A DNA stretch of 44,290 bases, from positions 1-44,290 of the forward strand of contig CALFUP010000039.1 in assembly GCA_937929875.1 (NCBI GenBank). The letters are read 5' to 3'. Source of the DNA: an uncultured Cocleimonas sp. (lineage in GTDB: Bacteria > Pseudomonadota > Gammaproteobacteria > Thiotrichales > Thiotrichaceae). A program made the translations under genes and the position numbers. The notes beneath the pieces were generated by a model. The model was not told the origin of the DNA, ran no database searches, and worked only from the letters and a program-made list of their open reading frames with translations. Positions 7,702 to 43,946 of this stretch are shown here, in pieces. The first letter of the stretch is position 1; each line of letters opens with the position of its first letter.

Positions 7702-7718
7702 AAAAAGTAGGGGGGTGT
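7702..7718 (+). repeat. G-tract repeat, copy 1
   Basis: AAAAAGTAGGGGGGTGT, followed by GCTTTT. It lies in the divergent gap between the CZB gene and rph, about 75 bases upstream of the rph promoter. Confidence 0.85.
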
Positions 7719-10031: not shown

Positions 10032-10048
10032 ACACCCCCCTACTTTTT
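10032..10048 (-). repeat. G-tract repeat, copy 2
   Basis: AAAAAGTAGGGGGGTGT on the minus strand, followed by CATTTTAGA. It lies between plsC and the CAP-domain gene, with the G-strand antisense to both. Confidence 0.85.
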
Positions 10049-13523: not shown

Positions 13524-13650
13524 CAAAAAGTGGGGTGCCTGCTTAGACTCCCTAGGAGTCAAGTAGGTAGTAGAATAATTACCGTAAGGGAATATCGGGG
13601 AACGCTGTAGTGTAGATATGAATTCCAAAAGGACACCCCCCCACTTTTTG
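13524..13650. repeat. REPIN-like inverted pair of G-tract repeats (copies 4 and 5)
   Basis: Copy 4 (13525-13538, plus) reads AAAAAGTGGGGTGC; copy 5 (13633-13649, minus) reads AAAAAGTGGGGGGGTGT. They face each other across 94 bases. The spacer holds two hairpins: GACTCC-CTA-GGAGTC (13546-13560) and GGTAGT-AGAATA-ATTACC. The whole unit fills the gap between the alpha-2-macroglobulin and pbpC genes and leaves little room for anything else. Confidence 0.65.
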
Positions 13651-19888: not shown

Positions 19889-19905
19889 AAAAAGTAGGGG
19901 GGTGT
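19889..19905 (+). repeat. G-tract repeat, copy 6
   Basis: AAAAAGTAGGGGGGTGT followed by ACTTCGG. It lies in the 378-base gap between the alpha-2-macroglobulin and M14 peptidase genes, antisense to both. Confidence 0.85.
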
Positions 19906-21100: not shown

Positions 21101-21117
21101 ACACCCCCCCACTTTTT
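21101..21117 (-). repeat. G-tract repeat, copy 7
   Basis: AAAAAGTGGGGGGGTGT on the minus strand, followed by GCTTTAAG. It lies between the MocR gene and the M14 gene, in the sense direction of both. Confidence 0.85.
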
Positions 21118-23099: not shown

Positions 23100-23116
23100 A
23101 AAAAGTAGGGGGGTGT
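23100..23116 (+). repeat. G-tract repeat, copy 8
   Basis: AAAAAGTAGGGGGGTGT followed by CATTTTT. It lies in the 66-base convergent gap between the DUF1127 gene and the methyltransferase gene. Confidence 0.85.
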
Positions 23117-30175: not shown

Positions 30176-30192
30176 ACACCCCCCCACTTTTT
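30176..30192 (-). repeat. G-tract repeat, copy 10
   Basis: AAAAAGTGGGGGGGTGT on the minus strand, followed by CCTTTTTAA. The flanking AAAAAG and CTTTTT could pair and put the G-tract in a loop. It lies between xthA and ampG. Confidence 0.85.
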
Positions 30193-34753: not shown

Positions 34754-34770
34754 ACACCCCCCCACTTTTT
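34754..34770 (-). repeat. G-tract repeat, copy 11, inside the dnaN-recF operon
   Basis: AAAAAGTGGGGGGGTGT on the minus strand, followed by ACTTTTT. The ends AAAAAGT and ACTTTTT are perfectly complementary over seven bases with the G-tract as loop, which makes this the clearest hairpin version. It is only 13 bases upstream of the recF start. Confidence 0.87.
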
Positions 34771-41832: not shown

Positions 41833-41849
41833 AAAAAGTAGGGGGGTGT
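41833..41849 (+). repeat. G-tract repeat, copy 12
   Basis: AAAAAGTAGGGGGGTGT followed by CATTTAGA. It lies between mnmE and the LysE-type gene, in the sense direction of both. Confidence 0.85.
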
Positions 41850-42656: not shown

Positions 42657-43364
42657 TTATCCACGCCCAACAAATGGCATCTTATTCGCCATAATGGTCA
42701 TTGATAAAACATTAGTGCTTAATGGTAAATTTGCCATATTAAACACTGCATCTGCAGCATCTTGAACATCCATAGTATCCATAGGACCTCCATGCTTTAT
42801 CAAGTTTGCAACTAACTCTGTATTAGCATTACCAATATCAATTTGCCCACAGCAGATATTCAAATCTCGGCCATCTAAAGCAATACATTTAGTAAGCCCT
42901 GTGACTGCATGTTTGGTAGATGTATAAGCCGCTGAATGAGCTCTTGGGGTAATTGCAGATATTGATCCATTGTTTATGATACGACCTCCTTTAGGTTTCA
43001 TAAGCCTAAAAGCTTCTCGTGCAGAAATAAACATGCCTGTTAAATTCACATCGACTGATGATTTCCATGCGTCTAAAGATATTTCATCAAAACGAGAACC
43101 GGGTGGAAAAATTCCAGCATTGTTAAATAAAACGTCAACATATCCAAACTCATTGTTCGCTTTTGCAAAAGCCTTTGTTACAGACGCTTCATCGGTGACA
43201 TCGCAGACTATGCTTATGGCGTTTTTATTTGTAGCGCTTATCGCATCTAATTTATCTAAACGTCTTGCCAATAAAGCAACATTCCAACCAGCATCGATAA
43301 ATTTATTAGCGGTGGCAGCGCCAATACCACTACTTGCACCTGTAATAACTATACTTTGCGGCAT
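42657..43364 (-). CDS. Short-chain dehydrogenase/reductase
   Basis: NAD(P)-dependent oxidoreductase of the classical SDR type. The cofactor motif is TGASSGIGAAT (residues 7-17). NNAGIF follows near residue 86, and the catalytic Ser and Tyr-Lys pair are in NNGSISAITPRAHSAAYTSTKHAVTG. ALLARRLDKLD after the second strand suggests NADP preference. Length 235 is typical. Substrate unknown. The aldehyde dehydrogenase fragment lies upstream on the same strand, but a strong terminator and a repeat copy separate them. Confidence 0.88.
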   Translation of the reverse strand: MPQSIVITGASSGIGAATANKFIDAGWNVALLARRLDKLDAISATNKNAISIVCDVTDEASVTKAFAKANNEFGYVDVLFNNAGIFPPGSRFDEISLDAWKSSVDVNLTGMFISAREAFRLMKPKGGRIINNGSISAITPRAHSAAYTSTKHAVTGLTKCIALDGRDLNICCGQIDIGNANTELVANLIKHGGPMDTMDVQDAADAVFNMANLPLSTNVLSMTIMANKMPFVGRG

Positions 43365-43465: not shown

Positions 43466-43482
43466 AAAAAGTGGGGGGGTGT
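43466..43482 (+). repeat. G-tract repeat, copy 13
   Basis: AAAAAGTGGGGGGGTGT followed by CATTTTTAAAG. It lies upstream of the SDR gene, between it and the predicted small RNA, antisense to both. Confidence 0.85.
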
Positions 43483-43544: not shown

Positions 43545-43570
43545 TAAAAAAGCCAGACCGAAGTCTGGCT
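43545..43570 (-). terminator. Strong rho-independent terminator with UUCG loop
   Basis: On the minus strand AGCCAGAC pairs with GTCTGGCT across a TTCG tetraloop, followed by six T. An eight-pair GC-rich stem with a UUCG loop is among the most stable terminator forms. It would end transcripts coming from the predicted small RNA or the aldehyde dehydrogenase gene. Confidence 0.85.
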
Positions 43571-43676
43571 GAGTAACCTTATCAAAATAAAGGGGGTATT
43601 TTGATAAGGCGGAGAGTCAAATGACTCGGGCTAACAACATAAAAAATATTGGGGGGGCTTTTAGTTGTTGTCAGCC
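43545..43676 (-). ncRNA. Predicted structured small RNA with C-tract loops
   Basis: About 132 nt read on the minus strand. First, an imperfect stem (GGCT...AGCC with AACAAC/GTTGTT, 43629-43676) encloses a loop with seven C. Next is a small GAGTC/GACTC hairpin (43614-43627). Then a perfect 13-pair stem CCTTATCAAAATA/TATTTTGATAAGG (43577-43609) has a seven-base loop containing five C. Last is the UUCG terminator. The start is uncertain: I could not place a convincing promoter, and it might instead be the 3' UTR of the aldehyde dehydrogenase mRNA. The rest of the 582-base gap (43365-43946) is AT-rich with only repeat copy 13 visible. Confidence 0.5.
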
Positions 43677-43946
43677 AAAACAGTTAACTAATGCTTCCTG
43701 TCTGTGGGAGTAATATCTCATAAGCAAAGAGAACGATCATTCTAAAAACGATAAGTGAGGTTACTTTCGGATGGAAGGGTAACAATAAAATTAGATAGAT
43801 CTATTCAATAAAAATAATAAATGGAAATACTTAAAAAATTTTTATTTGGAACTAAGATTCAGAAATTCACCTAATATTTGTATCTGTGATTTATCAAGTA
43901 TAGGAAATAATAATAAAAATTATCTTTTCTGGAAAAACAAAAATGC

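Follow-up and report, generated by a model that had tools for sequence, protein, structure and literature searches.

A candidate small RNA gene with C-rich loops in the Thiotrichaceae

We analyzed a 44,290-nt stretch of DNA from an uncultured Cocleimonas sp. (the window). We think it probable that the minus strand of this window carries, at 43545–43705, a copy of a Thiotrichaceae-specific gene for a small RNA; as our best reading, the RNA acts in trans and blocks translation by pairing with Shine-Dalgarno sequences.

A predicted RNA of about 161 nucleotides

The first-pass annotation of the window proposed a minus-strand small RNA at 43545–43676, with four hairpins, two loops that display runs of seven and five cytosines (C7 and C5), and a UUCG terminator. 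These features hold up. The 132 nt fold with a minimum free energy of –51.3 kcal/mol, versus a mean of –19.06 in 200 shuffles (z = –11.8; 0/200 shuffles equaled it), and a terminator scan recovered the same UUCG terminator as the fold. The annotation was also right that no coding frame explains the structure: there is no open reading frame of at least 30 amino acids on the minus strand within 43545–43676.

The gene is probably longer than this, and the earlier coordinates would then describe only its 3′ part. Because a promoter-like block upstream is conserved, we place the start near 43705, which gives an RNA of ~161 nt (43545–43705, minus strand) with a further 5′ hairpin. This extent, with a predicted start and an end at the terminator, draws on the fold, the upstream block, and family-wide matches to covariance models. 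The 161-nt version folds with z = –8.45.

From 5′ to 3′ on the minus strand, the first predicted element is P1 (43678–43703), a hairpin of variable sequence that appears in individual folds and is predicted in most of the Cocleimonas homologs. P2 (43629–43676) has 11 pairs and a loop with the C7 run (43657–43651), and 95.5% of its cells are paired across eight Cocleimonas genomes. A near-invariant segment, UGUUGUUAGCCC, lies at 43628–43639; in our alignment of 41 homologs, it reads UGUUAGCCCC in most genera. P3 (43614–43627) is a short hairpin of 5 pairs with the loop AUUU, and all 6 of its model pairs have changed on both sides. P4 (43576–43610) has 13 perfect pairs plus one G-U and a C5 loop (43596–43592); 11 of its 12 model pairs have changed on both sides. 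P5 (43545–43570) is the intrinsic terminator found by the terminator scan, with 8 pairs, a UUCG cap, and then U6 (across its 8 model pairs, 92% of cells are paired).

The promoter-like block is present without gaps upstream of the RNA in all 10 of the Cocleimonas loci. It contains an extended –10-like sequence, TGAGATATT (43712–43720, minus strand, with the hexamer at 43717–43712), which is invariant in the 10 loci except for one A/C; the shared form is TGnGATATT. A –35-like ATGATC (43735–43740, minus strand) lies 17 nt before the hexamer, and its TGA is at least 90% conserved. Further upstream (43750–43778, minus strand), column conservation points to another element, CC..TCnGAAA..T..TC, which is a possible activator site. 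The CC..TCnGAAA portion is at –61 to –48 relative to the hexamer; from –62 to –48, column conservation averages 0.84, versus 0.47 further upstream. The spacing of the –35-like and –10-like elements fits a sigma-70 extended –10 promoter. The block was not listed by a generic promoter scan, so we infer promoter function from the conservation.

Distribution and conservation of the structure

Searching close relatives at the DNA level, we found homologs within the genus, at 71–85% identity. The named records among these relatives belong to Cocleimonas (family Thiotrichaceae) and include C. flava DSM 24830. We built three covariance models, of which R3 is the final one, and we numbered the non-Cocleimonas genera of the family g2 to g8. 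R3 had strong matches (55–112 bits) in 49 of the 63 Thiotrichaceae genomes, with one per genome, in seven of the eight genera; the next-best score in Thiotrichaceae genomes was 32 bits. (At the level of the order, the search comprises the same 63 genomes.) Strong matches to R3 were absent from all six g3 genomes and from two Cocleimonas genomes, G006 and G011.

Among the more than 300 other gammaproteobacterial genomes that we sampled, there was no convincing copy. Within the class-wide sample (369 genomes), no R3 score outside the Thiotrichaceae was above 36.8 bits. This best outside match, L135, is a true anti-hemB locus, so we rejected it as a relative. The other marginal matches that we examined (L088, which is a tRNA region, L089/L136, L090, and L137) lack the core sequence and were rejected as well. 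The genome with L135 (G323) has two anti-hemB RNAs above the Rfam cutoff, at L135:1500–1565 and 1699–1769 (–), which are ~130 nt apart.

The first-pass annotation suggested a comparative search for covarying stems and conserved loops, and this came out in favor of the RNA. In the alignment of 41 homologs, which was fitted to a covariance model, 22 of 26 model pairs have changed on both sides and 88.6% of cells pair. The covariation score was 0.401, versus at most 0.121 for slid partners, and 0/500 shuffles reached any of the covariation measures. Similarly, a model-fitted alignment limited to the eight Cocleimonas sequences of full form scored 0.362, versus at most 0.070 for slid structures. 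When RNAalifold alone was run on the 41-row alignment, which is gappy and rich in indels, it recovered P5 only. Given this result and the model fitting, we used unconstrained folds of single sequences as the independent check. These folds contained P3 in 40/41 homologs, P4 in 41/41, and P5 in 40/41, and had CCC in the loop of P4 (the next-to-last loop) in 40/41. The family-wide conservation and the covariation refute the idea that AT-rich intergenic DNA folds this way by chance or without a function, and we give that idea practically no weight.

In the eight Cocleimonas genomes, P2 has one-sided wobble changes only, and none are compensatory, so its support is one of consistency, not compensation. 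The left arm of P2 is missing in G002 and G010 and, in the form seen in the window, from most other genera; in g8, a shorter version pairs AGCAACA with UGUUGUU. The C7 hairpin (P2) is less conserved than the C5 hairpin (P4) and is found in this form only in Cocleimonas. The original proposal of a minus-strand small RNA with C-tract loops gains support from the covarying stems, the C-run in the P4 loop (40/41 homologs), and the promoter-like block upstream.

Besides the stems, UUGUUAGCCC(C) is nearly invariant across the 41 homologs while the stems around it change. In g2, g4, and g5, the P4 loop holds a further, similar motif, UCUUAGCCCUU or UUCUAGCCCUU. What stays constant throughout the family is UUGUUAGCCC, together with a C-run in the next-to-last loop.

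The genes near the RNA vary

In the window, the RNA lies between genes for an aldehyde dehydrogenase (ALDH) and an SDR protein. The SDR gene (42657–43364) is on the same strand as the RNA and starts 180 nt downstream of it, and one relative (L022) retains the SDR gene; both would fit a role of the RNA in cis, as a leader or attenuator of this gene. However, elsewhere the RNA is kept while the downstream gene differs (rnd, pdxH, fur, or none on that strand). For instance, C. flava has rnd downstream of the RNA; in g7, the RNA is flanked by rnd and a gene for an M48 peptidase; and in g8, it is near a crp-like gene and fur/ubiD. Because the RNA is kept while its neighbors vary, it is not the leader of one particular gene, and we rejected the leader of SDR as highly unlikely.

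In g2, g4, and g5, the core of the RNA comes directly after a small lipoprotein gene, and in most cases queG and pdxH lie on either side; in g6 the lipoprotein gene is kept and the other neighbors differ. The core begins 10 to ~90 nt past the stop codon of the lipoprotein gene in these four genera, which would fit an element of the 3′ UTR: the conserved structure would mainly serve the upstream gene as a stabilizing tail and a terminator, and a regulatory RNA would be a by-product of mRNA decay. We consider this unlikely, as no such gene precedes the RNA in Cocleimonas, g7, or g8, and the RNA in Cocleimonas has its own promoter-like block. Also, nothing in the role of a mere terminator would call for an invariant UUGUUAGCCC and a C-rich loop two hairpins earlier. 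Read directly, the gene maps show the RNA as the 3′ region of a lipoprotein gene in one set of genera and as a free gene in another. The structure is conserved independently of the neighboring genes, as expected for the small RNA acting in trans that we favor.

The lipoprotein family upstream of the RNA in the four genera has a lipobox and a conserved W..xAY, and it has no match in Pfam. In g2, g4, and g5, the C-terminus is YIAxxYGL. These genes are L084:1100–1498, L076:1623–1910, L091:1208–1516, L093:1313–1582, L085:1059–1457, L101:1678–2004, and relatives.

Small RNAs that are derived from the 3′ ends of mRNAs have been reviewed (PMC9438474). Compared with such RNAs, the Thiotrichaceae RNA is similar in that it follows a coding gene in four genera and replaces that gene's terminator. 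It differs in that it stands alone in Cocleimonas, g7, and g8, with a promoter-like block in Cocleimonas.

Comparison to known small RNAs

The small RNA sX13 is 115 nt long, is encoded downstream of polA, and is found only in the Xanthomonadaceae (PMC3771888). It represses mRNAs with G-rich start regions, independently of Hfq; its C-rich loops pair with these regions, and mutational tests covered both the loops and the G-rich targets (PMC3771888). Like sX13, the RNA from Thiotrichaceae is a single, family-restricted small RNA gene with stable stems, C4–C5 apical loops, and varied flanks. The C-rich loops of the sX13 type are found both in the family (the CCC of P4 in 40/41 homologs) and in the window (two C-run loops). 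Unlike sX13, its host family is the Thiotrichaceae, and it has a constant UUGUUAGCCCC segment; we saw no sequence relation between the two RNAs. Also, polA is not near any of the loci, where open reading frames and Pfam identified queG, pdxH, rnd, M48 peptidase, fur, ubiD, SDR, and ALDH.

The double-hairpin RNAs of RF02278 (ncS03, ncS05, ncS27, and ncS62) are ~60 nt long and occur 3–5 times per Burkholderia genome, and their C-rich loops are predicted to pair with G-rich start regions (PMC5688073). The Thiotrichaceae RNA resembles these toxic small RNAs of Betaproteobacteria in having a hairpin and then a terminator hairpin, with unpaired C/U-rich stretches that are complementary to ribosome-binding sites, but it is longer and is present once per genome. 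The RF02278 model gave 20.2 bits in the window and 22.8 bits in L075, versus a cutoff of 50. Anti-hemB (RF02837, Burkholderia RNA 7) also combines a hairpin that has a C-rich loop with a terminator; the RNA in the window lacks the anti-hemB consensus and has extra hairpins, and it scored 22.9 bits versus a cutoff of 49.5. More broadly, nothing in the window reached a gathering score in Rfam 15, and representatives of five genera were below the cutoff as well. As the weak scores for anti-hemB, RF02278, and SorX were all under the cutoff, we rejected membership in these families.

From these comparisons, our best reading is that the RNA would work like sX13 and the RF02278 RNAs and belong to neither, given its locus away from polA, its host family, and the model cutoffs. 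It would be a new family-restricted small RNA with C-rich loops.

How the RNA might act

By analogy to these RNAs, the most likely action is a translation block at G-rich Shine-Dalgarno sequences. In Cocleimonas, transcription would run from the RNA's own conserved promoter, with a start near 43705 on the minus strand, to the UUCG terminator. Rigid hairpins would display unpaired C-rich segments: always the P4 loop, plus UUAGCCCC or, in Cocleimonas, the C5–C7 loop of P2. These segments would contact several mRNAs at their G-rich Shine-Dalgarno sequences, pairing as kissing or loop-linear interactions, and initiation of translation would be blocked. We infer the transcription, the action in trans, the targets, and any dependence on Hfq as parts of this best explanation.

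In C. flava, GGGG peaks at –20 to –11, where it is found in 3.6% of genes, versus ~1% elsewhere. Since these G4 runs peak at the Shine-Dalgarno position, targets for short C-runs exist. The extended complement, AGGGGCTAAC, had 38 matches before ATG, versus 32 for a scrambled control, so it is not enriched, and few of these matches are at real gene starts. For 976 C. flava genes (1.2 Mb), duplex energies were no more favorable at the starts than in internal windows. Pairing of the C-rich loops with G-rich ribosome-binding sites, as suggested in the first-pass annotation, is plausible by analogy to sX13 and RF02278; the seed-complement and duplex tests were negative or neutral.

We do not claim hfq as a shared target, as it is for sX13: the only candidate site, AAAGGGC, lies within conserved codons and is found in an outgroup too. 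Because hfq is present in the genus Cocleimonas, the RNA might or might not depend on Hfq. One genome (G015) has two Hfq-like genes (C13 and C28; L149 and L158), and the nearly complete genome of C. flava (G003) has no Hfq match.

Alternatively, the invariant UUGUUAGCCCC and the C-rich loops might bind a protein instead of mRNAs, so that the RNA is a sponge or a scaffold. In line with this, UUGUUAGCCC varies less than the sequence around it, and gene starts show no excess of its complement. We doubt it, as the RNAs with C-rich loops that have been studied so far act by pairing (PMC3771888), and a repeated protein-binding motif such as GGA loops is not evident.

A G-run repeat in Cocleimonas

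A scan for G-runs revealed a very abundant repeat, AAAAA-N8-AAGTRGGGGGGTG, with 620 copies in the genome that the window is from and 879 in C. flava. Four other Cocleimonas genomes have 913, 651, 289, and 237 copies; every other genome of the family that we searched has 4 copies or fewer. In the window, AAGTRGGGGGGTG is at 7705–7717, 19892–19904, 23103–23115, 41836–41848, and 43469–43481 on the plus strand and at 10033–10045, 13634–13646, 21102–21114, 30177–30189, and 34755–34767 on the minus strand. Of the copies scanned in C. flava, 215/255 are intergenic; they have no strand bias relative to genes. Some copies of the repeat form inverted pairs. At the C. flava loci (L160–L219), the A-tract is about one helical turn upstream of AAGTRGGGGGGTG. 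The repeat looks like the DNA uptake sequences of Neisseria and Pasteurellaceae.

Across twelve Cocleimonas genomes, which are few and whose shared ancestry was not corrected for, the P2 hairpin with its C-run is present in 6/6 of the repeat-rich genomes (G000, G003, G004, G007, G008, and G009); among the repeat-poor genomes (G001, G002, G005, G006, G010, and G011), the hairpin is present in two, its left arm is missing in two, and the RNA is absent in two. A more speculative scenario, which we consider quite unlikely, is that the most constant part of the RNA, UUGUUAGCCCC, does not serve as a target seed and instead tags the RNA for recognition by a dedicated RNA-binding protein. The RNA would belong to a new family of riboregulators, existing as the 3′ end of a lipoprotein mRNA in certain genera and as a free gene elsewhere, and Cocleimonas would have gained the C5–C7 hairpin alongside the genome-wide spread of the G6-run repeat (six genomes, all with the hairpin).

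Implications

We found very little literature on riboregulation in the Thiotrichaceae, and no paper in the literature that we searched joins Cocleimonas and small RNAs. The RNA described here gives this family a conserved candidate small RNA with defined ends and a cultured host, C. flava DSM 24830. If our best reading is correct, it adds an independent case of small RNAs with C-rich loops. It is also a case in which one RNA forms the 3′ end of a gene in some genera and is free-standing elsewhere.
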